Source: a virus
IMG/VR virus record: IMGVR_UViG_3300047095_000292
Coordinates: 27,908-91,907 of that record
Reading direction: 5' to 3' (one strand)
DNA length: 64,000 nucleotides
The position numbers were made by a program, and so were the translations under genes. This document shows, piece by piece, positions 2,706 through 12,076 of the stretch (position 1 is its first letter; each line of letters starts with the position of its first letter). A model generated the notes under the pieces. The model did no database searches and had not been told where the DNA came from. It saw nothing but the letters and a program-made list of their open reading frames with translations.

Positions 2706-3018
2706 TTAACCGATTCCATACCAGTACCTGTTATCTTTAAACTGTCCAGGGACAGCTGCAAGGATATCTTCTCTGGTTAGAATATCTGCCTGCGTTAATA
2801 GCTTACCATCGATCCTTGACCTTCCAGCCACAGGTATCAGACCAATATCGATAGCTTCATTCATGTACTTTAGATATAACTCACGCGGCATTCCGCGAGC
2901 GTACATTTCATCTAGAGTAGCTTTTATTGATTCACTTTGTACTGCTCTTGCATAGATTTCTTTTAAGGCCTGACGAGATTCTAACATATCTGCTGCATTT
3001 GTAAAGAAGGCGTCGTGT
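2706..3018 (-). CDS. Virion RNA polymerase, exon 5 (motif C and C-terminus)
   Basis: The last exon encodes the third base of a Val codon and then 103 residues. It opens with HDAFFTNAAD, matching HDSFGT of T7 RNA polymerase, so D1438 would be the second catalytic metal-binding aspartate. The rest is a helical C-terminal tail ending NRYWYGIG. The ATG at 2987 makes it look like a separate 93-residue gene, but that reading omits the catalytic HD and leaves the upstream in-frame residues unexplained. Intron 4 ends immediately upstream. Confidence 0.8.
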
Positions 3019-3978
3019 CTTTGTGTTCAAAAATGTTCGTTAAACATTCTCAGTATTGTCGAGTTAGTTATTTAATAATTCTTCCAAGTGTTACCAATTC
3101 TTATTTGCCTAATAGTGCTAGGATGCGCATTGTAGCTAACTGCAATTTCAGCATCAGATATTCCATTCTTAATTTTAGATCTTATATCAGGAATGTTCTC
3201 TGCTGTTATCTTGCGGGTCCGCAACTTACCACCATAACGACCAATCACTTCAAGACCTAAATGTGTCCAGCTCTCGCCAAGGCGTATTGCGTTAATAGAT
3301 TGACGTGTGACACCATACATAGCAGCAATCGCGGTATCTTTATACCCTACTGACATATAGTATATAATATCAGGAATATCGTCCTCTACTAAAACAGATT
3401 CCGGTCTACCAGAACCATTTAGCATAAGACCTGTATCATACGCATGTTGGACGTTTTCACGAGGTGTTGCCCACGCTAGATTACCAACTACGTTATTATC
3501 TCTAATTCCGTCTAAATGATTTACTTGTGTTTTGTTTTCTGGATTAGGTATAAAAGCTTCTGCTACAAGTCTATGTACTTTCGCCCTGAATGGTTTACCA
3601 TCTACTTCTATTTTAAAATGTCTATAACCATTTTGCAATGAACCATACGTAAGCAAACCAGTGCTTTCGCGCCTTAATCGCCCCAAACTGCTTACAGCAT
3701 ATCTCTTATCTTTATTGCATATACACCAAAATTCTTCCATTACATTTACTCCTTGTGTCTCGACAACACATCTGCATATTACTGTGCAGAACAGACTATA
3801 TCTTCAACAGCCTTATTGCTAGCTGTTGCCCCGCGTTTCGAGCAGACTTCTGCCCTACTCTACTTGGTAGTTACACCGTTCGATAGTCGTTGCACCTTGC
3901 TCTTGCGAGCCTTGGCTCAGGATTGCCCTTATGAGGGTGTCCCCTGAATTAGCGGAGTTTTACTACGGCAAGTTATTC
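3019..3978 (-). ncRNA. Group I intron 4, with HNH ORF
   Basis: A 960-base intron inserted directly before motif C. The upstream exon ends TACGGT and pairs with the internal guide GCCGTA a few bases into the intron, with the expected U-G wobble at the splice site. The last intron base is G3019. Core strands read on the minus strand are CTAATTCAGGGG (P), CAATCCTGAGCCAAG (Q), GGTGCAACGACTAT (R) and GAAGATATAGTCTG (S). Splicing joins GT and A into a Val codon. The intron carries an HNH endonuclege gene in its 3' half. Confidence 0.85.
3072..3740 (-). CDS. Intron-encoded HNH homing endonuclease (NUMOD4 type)
   Basis: A 222-residue protein inside intron 4. It starts with a NUMOD4-like segment (EEFWCI...YAVSSLGRLRR). 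The HNH core follows as AKVHRLVAEAFIPNP then QVNHLDGIRDNN and NLAWATPREN. The C-terminal half holds two helix-turn-helix-like repeats (DIPDIIYYMSVGYKDTAIA and IPDIRSKIKNGISDAEIA), ending in NTWKNY. Such enzymes cut intronless alleles and so spread their intron. The homing site would be the sequence around motif C of the polymerase gene. Confidence 0.9.
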   Translation of the reverse strand: MEEFWCICNKDKRYAVSSLGRLRRESTGLLTYGSLQNGYRHFKIEVDGKPFRAKVHRLVAEAFIPNPENKTQVNHLDGIRDNNVVGNLAWATPRENVQHAYDTGLMLNGSGRPESVLVEDDIPDIIYYMSVGYKDTAIAAMYGVTRQSINAIRLGESWTHLGLEVIGRYGGKLRTRKITAENIPDIRSKIKNGISDAEIAVSYNAHPSTIRQIRIGNTWKNY

Positions 3979-4046
3979 ACCGTACCTGTTTGAATATTAT
4001 TCTTTTGTCCCCATAGATGAAATTGCTTTACGATAACCGCATCGTT
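3979..4046 (-). CDS. Virion RNA polymerase, exon 4 (68-base micro-exon)
   Basis: A very short exon between two group I introns. It encodes NDAVIVKQFHLWGQKNNIQTGT plus the first two bases of a Val codon. Joined to NGNHS of exon 3 and HDAFF of exon 5, it recreates the HS-x-D ... HD block of single-subunit RNA polymerases (VHSQDGSH ... IHDSFG in T7). Exon boundaries are fixed on one side by the G ending intron 3 (4047) and on the other by P1 pairing of intron 4. Confidence 0.8.
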
Positions 4047-4346
4047 CAGTTTGTTCAATAGTGTTCGTTAAACGCTATCGGTATTGCGCCAATTAGCATT
4101 TTACTTCCTTTAATGTTGCTTGGCGCGCAACACCTGCATGTCACCATGCAGCTCAGACTATCTCTTATACTATTACTAGTATCTCTACGTTTCGAGCAGA
4201 CTACTGCCCTATGGACTTCATCTTCTGTTCTAGAAGGTATGTCCTAGTCGTTGCACCTTCAAAACCATTCCTGGTTAAGCTTGGCTCAGGATTGACTCAT
4301 GGAGTGTTTCCCTGAATTAGTAGAGTTTATTCACAGCATTTTGTTT
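4047..4346 (-). ncRNA. Group I intron 3, without ORF
   Basis: A compact 300-base intron. Exon 3 ends CACAGT and pairs perfectly with the guide GCTGTG, again with a terminal U-G wobble. Core elements close to those of intron 4 are present (ATTCAGGGAAAC, CAATCCTGAGCCAAG, GGTGCAACGACTAG). No endonuclease is encoded; a ribosome site and ATG (AAGGAAGTAAAATG near 4097) open a frame of only 14 codons, possibly all that is left of a lost ORF. Its 3' end shares the TTTAACGAACA block with introns 1 and 4. Confidence 0.8.
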
Positions 4347-5360
4347 ACTGTGATTACCGTTTACGGCGTAAGCCGTTCTAGCCTTGCCAGTATCTACAAT
4401 ATCGTTAATAGTACCTTTCTTATTTAGGAAGTACTGTTCCCATGTTGTAGGCTCTGTCTTTTGCTGTACCTGAATAATATTATTTATCCATTTACCTTCA
4501 GCATTTTTGTATGCAAGCTTCTCTTCAAAGGTCTGCGTAAATACCTGTTCCAGAGTTTTACCATCAAAGTTTACCCATGGAATATTAGTCCAAGACTTTG
4601 GTAGCTTATTATCGTAACCAACCTCAATACCTTTGGTAACATCGATACCGGCTATATCAAACTTACCGATTGTAAAGCCAGTCTTTCGATCAACAGGAGA
4701 TTTATAACCCATGATAATATTAGAGACAGTACTGTCTGGCACATATCCGGGAATACGATTAAGTATCTTTTCTTTAATACTTTCATCCTTAATCCCAAGT
4801 GTACGGCTTAACCATTTAGGTAGTCTCTTACCTGCTTTATAATCACCGTATATTGCAGTCTTTAGAGTAGACACAGGGGCAATACTAGCTGCCTTTGGTT
4901 TAGCATGTAAGGCATAATCCTCAGCAAGTCTACCGAAGAACTTAGTAAAGTCCTTTAAGATAGGTACTTGTGATCTTAAATTCTCGGACATGATCATTGC
5001 AATCTGTTGAAAATCGTCAGGTGTCACGACCTTGCCATATTCCCTGCTAAGTTTCTCAACAAAGTCTCTTGTACGGGGTTCAAGGAAATATAGTTGTTCA
5101 AGCATATCATCACCAGGAGCTAAGCCCTTATTGAACATATCCTTCACATCTTGTCGCAATGCCTTCAGTTCTCGATACATATCTGGATCGAATTTTTCAT
5201 ATCGAGCCATCCTTGCACTGATCTCCGACATGACAGCATCACGCTCACTGGCCTTTACAACAAGAAAATTTTCCTGCTTCTCTAATACCTTAGCAAGTTT
5301 GTTTTCTACGTTCATAATGCCTGTACGCTCGCCTGCTCCGTAAAATGTTACCATATTTTG
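4347..5360 (-). CDS. Virion RNA polymerase, exon 3 (motif B to HS block)
   Basis: This exon supplies 338 residues (1076-1413). It starts QNMVTFYGAGERTG, the second half of motif B with Y1082 and G1083, the equivalents of T7 Y639 and G640 that select ribonucleotides. A long helical and mixed region follows, and it ends YAVNGNHS. Read as a stand-alone gene it would run to a stop at 4317 (KQNAVNKLY), but those residues come from intron 3. The central 200 residues are specific to this protein and resemble nothing I recognise. Confidence 0.8.
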
Positions 5361-5741
5361 CATTTATGTTTAGTATGATTCGTTAAGTCATACTGGTGTT
5401 ATTGTCAAGTTTGTTAATTAGTAATTAGTCCAAGTTTTCTTTGCTATTCTTAATACTACCCATATTACTTACGAAGTATGGTAAGTTGTCTATCTGTTTC
5501 CAAATCTCGTCCATTTTATACTTTCACATGTGTCTTGACAACACCCTGCATGTTACCATACAGATCAGACTATATCTTCAAAGTAGCATAGCTACGATGT
5601 CCCCCGTTTCGAACTCACTTGAGTCCTACGTCTTTCGACTAGTCGTTGAACCTTCAAAAGTGTTTCCACTTAAGCTTGGCTGCTGATTGTCCTGCAACAG
5701 GAGTTTCCAGCAATTAAAGGGATTTTACAAGACCAAAAATT
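5361..5741 (-). ncRNA. Group I intron 2, with HNH relic
   Basis: A 381-base intron splitting motif B between Lys-Ala and Gln-Asn. The exon 2 end CAAGGCT pairs with the guide GGTCTTG with a U-G pair at the splice site. Core strands are AATTGCTGGAAACTCC, CAATCAGCAGCCAAG, GGTTCAACGACTAG and GAAGATATAGTCTG, the same subfamily as intron 1. The last intron base is G5361. Only a broken endonuclease frame remains, so the intron is probably immobile on its own. Confidence 0.85.
5418..5514 (-). pseudogene. Relic of an HNH homing endonuclease in intron 2
   Basis: A start at 5514 gives MDEIWKQIDNLPYFVSNMGS, the NUMOD4 N-terminus of the HNH family next door (TEIWKQYKNTQYLISTLGN). About 20 codons later the frame stops at 5425. 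Another frame of the same bases reads KKTWTNY-stop, which matches the family C-terminus (GKTWKNY). The whole HNH core between them is missing. I infer a large internal deletion with a frameshift that kept both ends of the ORF. Confidence 0.8.
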
Positions 5742-6336
5742 AGCCTTGGAAGCCTTACGCAAATCTTTCTCTGTCAGACCTAGCTTCTTGTTAAGTTCTC
5801 TGAACCTTGGATCATTAAAGGTACTTGCTGCTATCTCGTCGTATAACCTCTGCTTCTGATTAGTAGGTACCACATTACTAAGTTGAGCTAATTGTTTATT
5901 CTTTGTGGCAAGTGCAATAATCTGTGCTCCAGAAGAGCTAGCATCTTGCTCTAGTGCGATGGCTATCTTATAGCTGTTAAGCCTCTTCAAGCTAGCCGCA
6001 GAATAATCACCTCCTAAGTATTCGTTTATCTTAGACATCTCTAAAGCAAACCGTAGGACTTTTCCCTGTTCCTCTCCGTCGATCTCCTGTAAAAATTTTG
6101 ATTCTAATATTTTGCGTATATCATTAGGCTTACCACGACGCATCTGATCACCAAGTTGTATCATGTCTTTGCGCCACAGTGTAGCAATCTGTTGTCTACC
6201 AAGTACTGATAGCGAGTTATACCTGTCTTCTAGATGATCAGATGCTCCACCTAGAAAGGCTCCTATCTGGTCCTGGAAGTTAGCAAACTCAATATCGCTA
6301 AAGTTCTTAGCCTGCGCCGTGTTTAAAAACGGTCTA
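5742..6336 (-). CDS. Virion RNA polymerase, exon 2 (motif A)
   Basis: Exon 2 completes F877 and adds 198 residues (878-1075). It begins RPFLNTAQAK, aligned with TKGLLTLA after the PQ element of T7 polymerase. Motif A appears as LEQDASSSGAQIIALA, where D1008 would be the first catalytic aspartate (T7 D537). It ends EKDLRKASKA with R1070 and K1074 of motif B. The apparent N-terminal residues upstream of 6336 (MLGKYWQYLTN...) are intron sequence, and so are the C-terminal ones below 5742. Confidence 0.8.
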
Positions 6337-7325
6337 CGTTTATGTTCAACAGTATTCGTTAGATACTGCCAGTACTTACCAAGCATTGTTATTGTTTAAT
6401 AGTTTTTCCAGGTCTTACCAGATATAATGCCAGAGATAGTGCCGCTATGCACATTATAATCTCTGCCAATAGAAGCTAAACTTTCTCCAAGTTCGTGTCT
6501 AGTTCGTATATCTGGAATATCCTTACCTGATAGTTTTTTCTCACATATGCTACTTTTAGGACTCTTAGCTGGAAACACTAAGTCTGGTCTAACTTGTTTC
6601 CATGTATCCAAGGTTCGTATCTTAGATATTGTTCCTTTATTAACACCAAACAGCAATCCTATTTCGGTATTATTTAACTCATATTCTACAAATAGCTTTT
6701 TAATATTTTCGACATTCTCTTCATTTAGAACAGCTATGTATGTATCCGAACCAGAAACGCACATATCATTTGACCAAGCGTGTTTCATATTATCTACATG
6801 CGAAAGCCATTCTAAGTTTTCTACTCGATTATCCGTTTTCACTCCATTGATATGATTAACTTCAAGTGATAGATCTTTATTTTCTATAAACGTTATTGCA
6901 ACCAGACGATGCACTGCAATCGTAATATCATCTATATTTACAGCTAGATAACCTTTGCAGTTATCTTTAACTTTTAGCAGTTTCTCACTTTTATTCGACC
7001 ATACATTTCCTAGAGTGCTAATTAAATACTGCGTATTCTTATACTGTTTCCAAATTTCTGTCATGTTAATCTTCCATGTCGTGCTTGGCAGCACTTCTGC
7101 AATTTCGTTTCCTTATATGCAGACCAGACTATATCATCACCGCTGTCATAACAGTACGGTGTTGCGCGCTTCCATCGGACTTCCGATGTACTCCCGTAGG
7201 ATAGTCGTTGAACCTTCAAATTCATTTCTGAATAAGCTTGGCTGCTGATTGTCCATTAACGTATGGAGTTTCCAGCAATTCACGCAATTTTCGATGTATA
7301 TTACTATACAAAGCTTCTGATAACA
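6337..7325 (-). ncRNA. Group I intron 1, with HNH ORF
   Basis: A 989-base intron placed after the PQSGETF element. Exon 1 ends AAACTTT and can pair with the guide GAAGCTTT if one C is bulged, leaving a U-G pair at the splice site. This is the weakest of the four P1 helices, but it is the only choice I found that keeps the frame and ends the intron in G (6337). Core strands (AATTGCTGGAAACTCC, CAATCAGCAGCCAAG, GGTTCAACGACTAT) match intron 2. Confidence 0.8.
6396..7064 (-). CDS. Intron-encoded HNH homing endonuclease (NUMOD4 type)
   Basis: A 222-residue endonuclease in intron 1. The start at 7064 (MTEIWKQYKN) is preferred because it opens the NUMOD4 domain; a longer frame to 7094 adds unrelated residues. 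The HNH core reads AVHRLVAITFIENK, EVNHINGVKTDN, NLEWLSHVDN. Two DNA-binding repeats follow, and the protein ends GKTWKNY. It is a close relative of the intron 4 enzyme, implying copying between sites in one gene. It would cut the intronless exon 1-exon 2 junction. Confidence 0.9.
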   Translation of the reverse strand: MTEIWKQYKNTQYLISTLGNVWSNKSEKLLKVKDNCKGYLAVNIDDITIAVHRLVAITFIENKDLSLEVNHINGVKTDNRVENLEWLSHVDNMKHAWSNDMCVSGSDTYIAVLNEENVENIKKLFVEYELNNTEIGLLFGVNKGTISKIRTLDTWKQVRPDLVFPAKSPKSSICEKKLSGKDIPDIRTRHELGESLASIGRDYNVHSGTISGIISGKTWKNY

Positions 7326-9955
7326 AAAGTTTCTCCGCTTTGAGGCCCAATAAAGCCTCGTTCATATATACGTGCGCGATGATCTAGGAAGGGATGATTG
7401 CTGAATGCAACATCCTTTGTCCTAAGCCATTTCATTGACTTAAGCCTCTCATATGCATCACCACGTTCAATCATATACTCACGATACTTGTTCAAATCAT
7501 TGTAATACTTAGCTGCACCCTTATCATCTTGAAAGTTTATAAGCTTCTCAATGAAATCATGAAAGTCTGGATCTACCTTGTATTTTGCTGACGCTGCCCA
7601 ATTAAGAGCCCTTGTCATATCTTTATCAATTAACTTGGCAGGGAAATCGCTAAAGGAACTTGTAGATGTAATAGGAATTCGAGTATCCATTAGTCCATAC
7701 ATACCCCTATCAACAAAGTATGTTTTATAGCCCTCACGTATCAAGAGTCTATTACTATCTACAGTAACACCAACACGAAGACCCACATCTACCTTTCGAG
7801 TAAGTCTAGCATACTCTTGAATCCTGGGATCTACAATTCGTAGATTCACTGAGAATGTATCATAGTATGGACCAAAATATGCTCCAAAGTTTCTACTCTT
7901 CATTCTACGTTTCTGTACGCCAAAGGTCTCTAATTCATAGAAGCCCTTACCATGCGCGTCATCTAACAGCTTTACTCCAAGATTATACCATTCGTTACGG
8001 CTACCACGATAGTTAGCCATATTATATAAGTCACGGCCTAGTGCAACTGCTAATTGGTCTCTATCAGGTGAGTCTGCTAGACTAAGACGCCTTGCAAACT
8101 TTAAATAGAAATTATCCAACTGTTCATCATCTAGCCTTATCTTTAATTTAGCGGGTAGCCTGAAGTCTAGTATGTTACGTAACTCTTTAGCGATCTTCGG
8201 AGCAGTGCGATCTTCCCATTTATTCTTAGCAATTATATTAGAAATAAAGTTATCATGTAGCTCTTGTAACTGAGTTGGACCAAGAACTGGATCAATATAA
8301 TTAGCTTGCTTTAATTTGAAAAGAAGATTAGCATCTTTTCTAATTTGAGTCTCGATATAATCAGATACGTTCATAATATCAAACTTAATCTGACCTTGTA
8401 AGACAGCCTTCATGTTAGTCCATGGCTCTTTGTTATCACGAAAACGCCCAAAAGTTATCCGGAGATTTTCAGTAATTACTGCCCTCTCGTTAACACCCAT
8501 GTGATCTTCAAGGCCATCTACAAAGTTCTTAATGAACTCTTTATCTCTAGGTAGAAGAGACTCACTCTCATCTACAAGTTTATACGTATTACGCAATGTA
8601 TCAGGACTTGGTTGGTACATACGGGAATCATCGTACCTGCCAGTGATCGGATTATATTTTAAATTCTCTTCTCTAGGTGGTGATCCAAGTACTCTTGCCT
8701 TAGTATTCTTTTTATTATGTAGTAAAGTGCCTCGATAATTCGTAAGAGAAAGCGTACCATCTAGCTCTCCTGATTGCAATATGTAATATTCTTTAAGAGC
8801 TTTCTGGAGTTCCTTATTGTCATAAAATTCATCAGGTCTTGCTGCACCTAACTTAATTACATCCAGTCTCTCCTTCGCCAACGCGAATCTTCGAGTGTCA
8901 CCTGGAATTCCATACCCAGAGTCAGTAAGACCTCTAAGCTCTCTAATCCCGACGCTATTGCCGCCTGCATTAGAGAACTTGTCCAAGGTAAGCTGTCCTG
9001 ATCTAAATAGCTCAAGCTTTGTTGTATCGCCAATGTGCTTGAATTGCACCTCAACGGGTTGTCGTTGTAGCCACGCATTATATGATTCCTTAAGAGGAGT
9101 TTGTCCATCGTATAAGGCAATCTGTTTAGCTGACAATCCTTCAAAATTCCTTTTGCGAATTTGTGCAATACCCTCTAACGAACCGAGTTGGTCATAGCTC
9201 TTAACTATTGGTATTGTCGTCGATCTGCAGTACCAGTGTGCTGGTGGCAGATGCTCATGGTCACTTATCGGGTAGATAGTTCCATCCCTTGACGCACATA
9301 AAGGGGTAGTCCTAGAATCTAATACGGCAACATATTGCCATCCTTGTAATGCCTTTTCATTAGCTTTGTAAACTTCATGGTCAGCCTGAGCATATACACT
9401 TGTCGTAGCTGTAACTGTAAGGCCTTTAGCCTGATTCTTTGTTATATTAAAGGTAGACTTAGATATAGACTTAGCAATTTCATTTTCATTAAGACCTTCT
9501 GCTATACCTTTTCTAATCAGCCCTTCAATACGTATCTTCTCATTCTTTCCAATCCCTGCCCAGCCCTGATCTAGTGTTTTATCAAGGTATATCGGCCTGT
9601 GCAATACAATATCCTCTGCAACACGCCTAGGCGGTTGTGATACTCGCCAGATACGTCCAATTGCATCATCCATATTTTGAACAGCATAGGAAGTCTGATC
9701 CTTGAACAAGTCTAAGAGAGAACGGCTAGACACATTGTGTGCATCTGCCATTGTCTTTATAATTTCTTTATCGAGACTTGCTTGAAAGCCTTTAAAGCCT
9801 GTTCCACGTAACTTTGATTCTTTGATAAGACTATCAACGCGCACTGCATGTCCATCAATAATTAACTCTACTTTATTAGAAGTACGTTGCTCATATAAGC
9901 GTATCATTGCTGCACGATTGATACTCTTATCATAAATCTGTGTATTAACATTCAT
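7326..9955 (-). CDS. MuF-type minor head domain and start of virion RNA polymerase, exon 1
   Basis: The exon encodes residues 1-876. Residues about 211-251 carry the MuF/SPP1-gp7 signature: LDSRTTPLCASRDGTIYPI, then HLPPAHWYCRS with paired Cys and His. SPP1 gp7 binds the portal and is involved in DNA ejection, and MuF domains are known to carry C-terminal effector domains. After a long unassigned region, residues 858-877 read LDHRARIYERGFIGPQSGET, matching the DxRGRxY element of T7-type RNA polymerases. The literal ORF ends at 7304 in intron sequence. Ribosome site AAGGATTATC precedes the ATG. Confidence 0.85.
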
Positions 9956-9963
9956 GATAATCC

Positions 9964-10440
9964 TTAGGACGGCTTATGAAATTCCCCATGATGTTCAGCC
10001 GTAACAGCATCACGAGCCTTGCTTGCTTCCTCTGCAGTATCGTATAGACCGATAGTATGGCGGTTTCCATCAACCACCACCCTCGCCCTCCACTTACCAC
10101 TAAATTTATCTATCCCTTTAAATCCTGACGTGTTAGTACTAGGTGCATTTCTATTCTGCATATTTTGTTCGGCAGTAGCAGGTCGCAAATTTTTTATACG
10201 GTTATTGAGACGATTAGTATCTCTATGATCAACTTTCTCAGGTATGTCGTCATGATGCAACATATAGATCAATCGATGGACCTTATATGTTTTACCACCA
10301 TATTTCACCTGCAGATAGCCTTCGCTATTCTTAGTGCCCACAGGAGAACCCTTAACTATTGAAGGGCCTCCATTAATATTCCAGAACAATTGACCGTCTT
10401 TATAGTAGAATGTTTCTTTAATCTGCTTCTGGGTCAGCAT
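9964..10440 (-). CDS. HNH endonuclease with AP2 DNA-binding domain
   Basis: A free-standing 158-residue homing-type endonuclease between the portal and MuF-polymerase genes. The start at 10440 (MLTQKQIKETFYYKDGQLFW) overlaps the portal stop by 23 bases; a longer frame would only copy portal sequence. The HNH core is YKVHRLIYMLH, KVDHRDTNRLNN, NLRPATAEQNMQN, followed by an AP2-like domain (SGFKGIDKFSGKWRARVVV ... IGLYDTAEEASKARD). No intron features flank it. Confidence 0.85.
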   Translation of the reverse strand: MLTQKQIKETFYYKDGQLFWNINGGPSIVKGSPVGTKNSEGYLQVKYGGKTYKVHRLIYMLHHDDIPEKVDHRDTNRLNNRIKNLRPATAEQNMQNRNAPSTNTSGFKGIDKFSGKWRARVVVDGNRHTIGLYDTAEEASKARDAVTAEHHGEFHKPS

Positions 10441-12076
10441 TAGGCTTAGCCTTCTTAAGTGGTGTCTTAGCTTTAGGTGTTGATATACCAGCCATGTCTG
10501 CAACCTTGCTAGCATAGCTGTCGGCATCAACTTGGCCCATCACCATATCATCTTCAGTAATCTCGATCTGACCCTCTTCGTCATTATAATCAGGACTAAT
10601 CATATCATTAACTTTGAGAATCTGTAGCCAAATAGAACGAGGAATGAGTCCACTCTGATACCATTCAGTAGCAAGACGTAGCCAATCAGCACCAAGTGGG
10701 GTTGGATTAAAGTCAGCAGACAACTCAAACTCAATATCAGTATTTTTAAGCTGTAAATCATAGCGCCAGTTAAGCATAAATGCAATAATAGACGCCATCT
10801 GATTACTTACTTTAATATTAAGAGTTCCTAATTGAGCAGTCTGAGCAGCATTACGAATGTCCAGTGCAACACCTGACTGTTGAGTTTCTGGTGTCAGCAT
10901 ACGAATACCCAGCTTAGCCATATCCTCAATAGCAGATGCAATAGCTCTATCCATGTCTGTAAGTGCAGCAGTAGGTGTATCAAGGACAGTAGCTGTAGCA
11001 CCTTCTGGGAGCTTAAGCCAGGTGCCTAAACCGGCATCTACAATTGCATCAAAAGCATCATCAGTTATATTTCCCGTCAATACAGGTGTATACGTAGACG
11101 CGCCATACAACAGATGATTACGTCGGCTCATTTTATTATATAGTGCAACTTCCTTATCAATAAAAGGAGATAGCATAGGTTCAATAACACGAATTGAACC
11201 ATTTAATGGCCATGCAGGAATCTGTGTAAGACGCTCGCCATTCATTAGAATAGTTTCAAGTGTCTCGACTAGCTCATAAGCTGACAATTTAGGATCAGCC
11301 CCAGCTGCATTCTGCGTATACTTCTGTTGTAGTTTGCCGTTAACAACAATCACCTGCGCATCTTCTACCTTCTTCTCATATCTACGGATACGATAGAAAC
11401 CTTCTACGATTTCATGTACGATAACAGTATCTATATAAGACGGATGAAATTCGTTTTCTTCAACGCGCTCTACGTAGTTTCTAACGATAATCTGTTCTAG
11501 AGACTGTACACCAGTATCCTCTCGAGTCGATACTCGCCAATTAATTATAGATTCAGCGTTCCATATTACAGGATAGGGTTTCAGTTCAGCATACTGTTCC
11601 CTAGTAAGATCTTCTGGGTTTAATATCTTAGGATAGTCTACATACACCCATGCTCTGCTTGTCTGAACTTCTTCCCATAGAATTTCATCAAGAAAAGAGA
11701 CCAGCGGTGAGCTATTATGGCTAAAGTGATTCATTATCCATTCATATGCTCCAGCTGGCACCTTACCTTCTGGAAGCTTAAGCTGAGGTTGTTTCCTTAA
11801 CAGACCACCAATAATAATGCGAGCATATTGAGAGACAATACCTGGGAGTTCTGCTTCTGCCTTGTAGAATTCATATTGCTTTGCATCCATTGAGGGCGAG
11901 AAAGGGATCAGCAAATTGCTAAATGTCAGTACATCAAGGTAGCCATCAAAGTCCTTAGCAAAACGCTCACCACCTATAATTGCTCTCGATTTTTCCCATA
12001 AACCTCTCATTGACTCGTATGAAGATGTTGGATCTGCTACTGAACGCTTGTGTTGAACTGCATTGACTACTGACAT
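10418..12076 (-). CDS. Portal protein
   Basis: A 552-residue protein of portal length. The N-terminal region includes YARIIIGGLLRKQPQL, PLVSFLDEILWEE and RAWVYVDYP, typical of the portal family with the DUF4055-like architecture. An acidic, Lys-rich tail ends KKAKPNADPEAD. The portal forms the dodecameric DNA channel at one vertex and is the docking site for MuF proteins, whose gene follows directly. The start at 12076 overlaps the stop of the HNH gene upstream by ten bases. Confidence 0.85.
   Translation of the reverse strand: MSVVNAVQHKRSVADPTSSYESMRGLWEKSRAIIGGERFAKDFDGYLDVLTFSNLLIPFSPSMDAKQYEFYKAEAELPGIVSQYARIIIGGLLRKQPQLKLPEGKVPAGAYEWIMNHFSHNSSPLVSFLDEILWEEVQTSRAWVYVDYPKILNPEDLTREQYAELKPYPVIWNAESIINWRVSTREDTGVQSLEQIIVRNYVERVEENEFHPSYIDTVIVHEIVEGFYRIRRYEKKVEDAQVIVVNGKLQQKYTQNAAGADPKLSAYELVETLETILMNGERLTQIPAWPLNGSIRVIEPMLSPFIDKEVALYNKMSRRNHLLYGASTYTPVLTGNITDDAFDAIVDAGLGTWLKLPEGATATVLDTPTAALTDMDRAIASAIEDMAKLGIRMLTPETQQSGVALDIRNAAQTAQLGTLNIKVSNQMASIIAFMLNWRYDLQLKNTDIEFELSADFNPTPLGADWLRLATEWYQSGLIPRSIWLQILKVNDMISPDYNDEEGQIEITEDDMVMGQVDADSYASKVADMAGISTPKAKTPLKKAKPNADPEAD

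Follow-up and report, generated by a model that had tools for sequence, protein, structure and literature searches.

The window analysed here is a stretch of 64,000 nucleotides, bases 27908-91907 of a virus record of 91,907 bases, which is metagenome-derived. With ten open HNH_3 endonuclease genes, the 92-kb record (G000) bears a high load of them. Four group I introns were detected by Rfam within 4.3 kb on the minus strand, all in one gene, and the features concerned are as follows.

2706-9955, minus strand: host gene, a fusion of MuF head protein and T7-type RNA polymerase, 1539 aa when spliced; exons 9955-7326, 6336-5742, 5360-4347, 4046-3979 and 3018-2706
6337-7325, minus strand: intron 1, 989 nt, with an intact NUMOD4-HNH_3 endonuclease (RF00028, 81.8 bits; splice product)
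6396-7061, minus strand: HNH endonuclease of intron 1, intact, 221 aa as scanned, ending GKTWKNY (HNH_3 34.2 bits, NUMOD4 27.2 bits)
5361-5741, minus strand: group I intron 2, 381 nt, within KASKA^QNMVTFYG (RF00028; splice product)
5729-5747, minus strand: P1 of intron 2, 5' exon AAGGCU (5747-5742) paired with the intron guide GGUCUU (5734-5729), as read from the sequence
5395-5545, minus strand: predicted stem-loop between P9 and the terminal hairpin, its loop filled by the remnant (RNA folding, 12 introns); arms GGUGUUGUCAAG (5545-5534) and CUUGACAAUAACACC (5409-5395)
5425-5514, minus strand: truncated ORF of 29 aa, remnant endonuclease N-terminus (first half of NUMOD4, PF07463)
5418-5441, minus strand: remnant C-terminus KKTWTNY-stop, shifted to the +1 frame with respect to the N-terminal part (PSSM, simulation)
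5372-5394, minus strand: terminal 3' hairpin with UAACGAA in its loop, a layout common to the introns of the set
4047-4346, minus strand: intron 3, 300 nt, without an ORF (RF00028, 71.9 bits; splice product); its loop (4134-4080) keeps AAGGA (4110-4106) and ATG (4099-4097)
3019-3978, minus strand: intron 4, 960 nt, with an intact HNH endonuclease (RF00028, 78.7 bits; splice product)
3072-3740, minus strand: HNH endonuclease of intron 4, intact, 222 aa, ending GNTWKNY (HNH_3 39.6 bits)

When the introns (7325..6337, 5741..5361, 4346..4047 and 3978..3019) were excised in silico, 1539 stop-free codons were obtained, and all spliced junctions read like the uninterrupted protein of relatives such as L006. 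All four introns have U at -1 and a terminal G. Intron 1 is inserted after DHRARIYERGFIGPQSGET and intron 3 in NGNHS^NDA; intron 2 lies in what we take to be polymerase motif B (KASKA^QNMVTFYG) and intron 4 immediately before what is presumably motif C (HDAF), both by comparison with the T7 motifs. Directly upstream of the polymerase gene stands a further HNH_3 gene (9964-10530, minus strand), which overlaps the 3' end of the preceding ORF (10418-12076).

Exon 1 of the host gene contains a MuF head-morphogenesis domain (61 bits), and the intronless relatives match RNA_pol (PF00940) with 41-49 bits against a cut-off of 22. Because Pfam was weak on the split exons, the T7-type polymerase fold was also checked, and it held. 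For L006 the C-terminal 765 residues were modelled (pLDDT 74.6, pTM 0.71); the model matched T7 RNA polymerase with Z 23.7 over 454 aligned residues (rmsd 5.1), and N4 virion RNA polymerase was a weaker match. A PDB sequence search for the polymerase part gave no match. From the Pfam and fold matches together, the host protein is a head protein fused to a T7-type single-subunit polymerase. The fusion was seen in the window (9955-2706, minus strand) and also in L006, L010 and L028, which suggests that the polymerase is packaged in the virion and released together with the DNA. The virion polymerase of N4 is delivered with the DNA likewise, although its protein context differs from the MuF fusion described here.

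Intron 2 gave the best Rfam match of the four introns (RF00028, 5752-5546, 89.4 bits against a gathering cut-off of 50, E 1.6e-21) and covers the full model (1-253). Its exact ends come from the splice product KASKA^QNMVTFYG, which is identical to the uninterrupted gene of L005 and L006, and the interval 5361-5741 given in the initial annotation was thereby confirmed. The intron has U at -1 and ends in ...AAATG, with a U.G pair in P1 at the 5' splice site. As far as can be read from the sequence, its ribozyme core, its P1 pairing and the stem that encloses the endonuclease are intact; splicing, of which it should still be capable, would restore the frame of the polymerase. We further folded twelve introns in their 3' portions, leaving out any gene they contain, and obtained a common layout of a P9 hairpin, a long gene-enclosing stem and a terminal hairpin. 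The endonuclease genes and the intron 2 remnant occupy the same stem-loop. A deletion inside the gene would be tolerated because the gene forms the loop of the predicted stem.

The ORF at 5514..5425, MDEIWKQIDNLPYFVSNMGSIKNSKENLD, starts with ATG and matches NUMOD4 (PF07463) with 25.1 bits (cut-off 23.4, E 2.1e-5), residues 3-25 corresponding to profile positions 1-25 of 49 only; the NUMOD4 start reported for this intron is therefore real by the Pfam threshold. That the ORF is more than debris, namely a working mini-protein whose half NUMOD4 was retained to bind DNA or RNA, is highly improbable, even though it is open, has an ATG and sits at the usual place of the gene: just 25/49 profile positions are retained, the AAGGA ribosome-binding site seen before several intact genes is not recognisable here, and no conserved copy of the mini-ORF was found in searches with DNA and with the degenerate N-terminal pattern. 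We regard the ORF as the remnant of a NUMOD4-HNH_3 endonuclease and not as a working member.

WKNY-stop ends all seven intact intron-borne endonucleases of this gene family (those of introns 1 and 4, L048, L035, L058 and two from L067); an eighth, at site 4 of L024, is shorter and has a different C-terminal end. In a matrix built from these seven C-termini, KKTWTNY-stop of intron 2, which has one substitution relative to WKNY, was the third-best match in the 64-kb window, behind two real genes (19.5 versus 12.2 for the next). This score was reached once in 4 Mb of simulated sequence, or about 2.5e-7 per base. The C-terminal evidence comprises these 7 residues plus flanking DNA: over the 48 nt around the remnant stop, from KKTW through the post-stop segment, 33/48 are identical to intron 4, which 0/5000 shuffles reached. 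On the NUMOD4 match and the matrix and shuffle results, both ends of the remnant are judged to be real and to come from the same kind of gene. The initial annotation was thus right that the family C-terminus follows the NUMOD4 start in another frame, and each of the two ends matches the HNH family represented in introns 1 and 4 far beyond chance; its spacing of about 20 codons needs a small correction, the C-terminal motif beginning about 4-5 codons past ...NMGS, at 24 codons from the ATG.

Between these ends the nuclease core is gone, as had been proposed. No match to the HNH catalytic core was found in intron 2, and 97 nt are left where the intact genes have about 650-680 nt (~670), so that ~570 nt are missing, the entire HNH core among them. 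The break falls in a stretch of about 20 nt around 5455-5437 and was not placed to the base because a full-length allele with the same N-terminus was not found. By comparison, the intron 4 endonuclease is 69% identical to its L048 counterpart, with dN 0.23 and dS about 2.5 (near saturation), which therefore indicates strong constraint on the intact genes, unlike intron 2.

Two further explanations concern how such a short remnant arose. The gene-less introns of the set (L024, L058) make gene capture possible, and one might think of gain instead of loss, that is, a failed or partial insertion of an endonuclease gene into intron 2. We consider this improbable in the extreme, however, as a partial insertion would not give both gene ends, and here both termini are found, correctly ordered and placed in the expected loop, with the expected spacing to the 3' hairpin and the post-stop sequence of the family. 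It is also very unlikely that the remnant is an artefact of short-read assembly, in which two similar stretches caused a full-length endonuclease to be collapsed. A metagenome-derived record with ten HNH_3 genes can confuse assembly, but the entire remnant, with its junction within ~100 nt, is shorter than a usual read, its N-terminus is no close copy of a known gene (best identity 52%), introns 1 and 4 came out intact in the same assembly, and introns lacking a gene at or adjoining site 2 occur in other records (L024, L058, L067). An internal deletion within a real intron remains our preferred reading.

We searched for the parent allele with the intact endonucleases, the family alignment, two exact DNA patterns and a degenerate pattern for the N-terminus, but IMG/VR yielded no allele of full length that begins in the same way. 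The degenerate pattern had matches in the two L058/L059 contigs and nowhere else; their site-1 endonuclease has the N-terminus closest to the remnant (52% over 23 aa). A tblastn search of phages with the 29-aa peptide returned nothing with E lower than about 0.5, and many of its weak matches fall in genes annotated as HNH endonucleases. The top DNA matches were Klebsiella phage Asterion and Escherichia phage JEP1; the HNH gene of Asterion was rejected as a comparable case, the match being split by ~430 bp that hold this gene elsewhere in the intron. The full-length version expected in related phages does exist for the same family at the same site, in L035, where site 2 holds an intron of 959 nt with a full endonuclease gene; the exact parent allele, with the same N-terminus, is the part that was not recovered. 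By identity, the nearest core to that of intron 2 is also L035 site 2 (73%). L035 was rejected as a proven ortholog all the same: a tree of 24 intron cores had poor support and did not group the introns by insertion site, the site-2 introns not falling together. We claim no descent of intron 2 from any particular relative on these sequences, and L035 is not taken as established to be the direct ancestor type.

Other relatives show further states at this position. Site 2 is empty in L005, L006 and most others. Introns without a gene are present at site 2 or within one base of it in L024 (275 nt), L058 (295 nt, one base away) and L067 (314 nt), and L030 has, at or next to site 2, an intron of 878 nt with a different HNH-like gene. 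The loop of L067 reads ...GAGGTGTGTTATGGAAATCTATTAATACAAAC..., in which a start (ATGGAAATC) may be joined to the usual end (CTATTAA) as a start/stop scar, a reading that is no more than suggestive. The stem GTTGCGCGCCAAGCAA/TTGGCGCAATACCGATAG is common to intron 3 of the window and its counterpart in L058, which is nearly identical; unlike the L058 counterpart, the intron 3 loop contains CATTAAAGGAAGTAAAATGC, a ribosome-binding site plus ATG. This loop is probably the scar of a fully eroded endonuclease, and intron 3 seems to represent a later stage of decay than intron 2, with only the ribosome-binding site and ATG left. The same pair was found in 4/8 gene-less loops (P about 0.0006 by shuffling, in a post hoc test). 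The possible scars in L067, intron 3 and the gene-less loops suggest repeated collapse without proving it. As a separate observation, motif B is an intron hot-spot, where the relatives together have about four separate insertion sites in a stretch of roughly 50 nt (noted in L035 4500-5800, L018, L032, L016 and L058), and in L035 two introns are only about 20 nt of exon apart.

Since the ends match, the middle is missing, the ribozyme reads as intact and L035 holds a full gene, the "homing element in decay" of the initial annotation is the best reading: intron 2 is a group I intron that very probably carries an internally deleted NUMOD4-HNH endonuclease, and it would have kept splicing and lost homing. 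It would once have held a NUMOD4-HNH homing endonuclease gene of ~220 residues in a peripheral stem loop just 3' of P9. An internal deletion of ~570 nt would then have taken out the HNH core and the DNA-binding repeats and left ~25 N-terminal and ~7 C-terminal codons in different frames. Such a deletion would lie wholly inside the loop, so that the ribozyme core and the enclosing stem would be untouched. Intron 2 would make no homing nuclease of its own and would persist by vertical inheritance, or by co-conversion when the nucleases of introns 1 or 4 initiate homing; these intact endonucleases may carry intron 2 along. It is possible, and we offer it tentatively as a doubtful extension, that the motif-B hot-spot displays the whole homing cycle: sites without an intron, introns whose complete endonuclease belongs to one or the other of two HNH types, introns with a collapsed gene, introns reduced to a scar of the ribosome-binding site and ATG, and introns with no trace of a gene. 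The gene ends would repeatedly survive such a collapse because the ribozyme needs closure of the gene-enclosing stem, and the collapsed introns would go on moving through co-conversion with the intact nucleases of their neighbours in the gene.

The decay of intron endonucleases is already well known in principle, and intron 2 is a clear, ordinary example. The closest precedent is the T4 nrdB intron, whose HNH endonuclease I-TevIII is inactive by a large deletion and functional in RB3, and which is trans-mobilised in its defunct state by MobE (PMC2988022). In both cases a group I intron interrupts an essential phage gene for a nucleic-acid enzyme, a deleted HNH gene lies in the retained intron, and a relative has the functional version or, for intron 2, a full gene of the same family at L035 site 2. 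However, the window differs in having a NUMOD4-HNH_3 endonuclease with HTH repeats, a MuF-RNA polymerase host gene, both gene ends left, and a pair of intact nucleases in other introns of the gene, no more than about 2.5 kb away. The Porphyra S1506 introns, with degenerated His-Cys box HEGs, ORFs down to 8 aa and splicing retained in vitro (PMC2585584), likewise display graded HEG degeneration inside a peripheral paired element, but they belong to eukaryotic nuclear rDNA and concern another family, a P1 extension and a population cline. In phage PhiPA3, a conserved site of an RNA polymerase gene is occupied by a putative group I intron that carries the HNH endonuclease gp210 (PMC11620839); that polymerase gene encodes a multi-subunit virion RNAP beta subunit, and the nuclease is intact and used against a co-infecting phage. 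The crAss-like Zeta/Delta phages have a core gene split by several group I introns and inteins in others (PMC7886860), but this is another phage group with other genes (MCP, PolB, TerL). What the present locus adds is a series of states in one gene, with two intact endonucleases, one collapsed and one probably fully eroded, the relatives being empty or full, and with nearby intact nucleases that possibly carry the decayed introns. It offers a compact natural series in which the route of collapse and the carriage of collapsed introns by their neighbours can be tested.

Other insertions were seen in the same gene of relatives. L036 (6275-6745) and L066 (1955-2445) have an in-frame insertion of ~125-140 aa at polymerase residue 983-987, without a Pfam match. 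In-frame insertions of ~330-340 aa occur at residue 243 in the MuF domain of L058 (1720-2760) and L067 (1535-2565), with matches to LAGLIDADG_3 (L058 and L067) and HINT (L058), all below cut-off; they are probable inteins in an intron-holding gene. In EBPR siphovirus 1 (L176, JF412302.1 25771-31144), where Rfam found no intron above its cut-off in the gp47-gp49 region, the three genes are listed as head protein, HNH endonuclease and hypothetical protein. Together they appear to make up a single MuF-RNA polymerase gene, interrupted after QNMV by an intron that bears the HNH gene, and the listing illustrates how annotation fails for intron-split polymerase genes of this kind.
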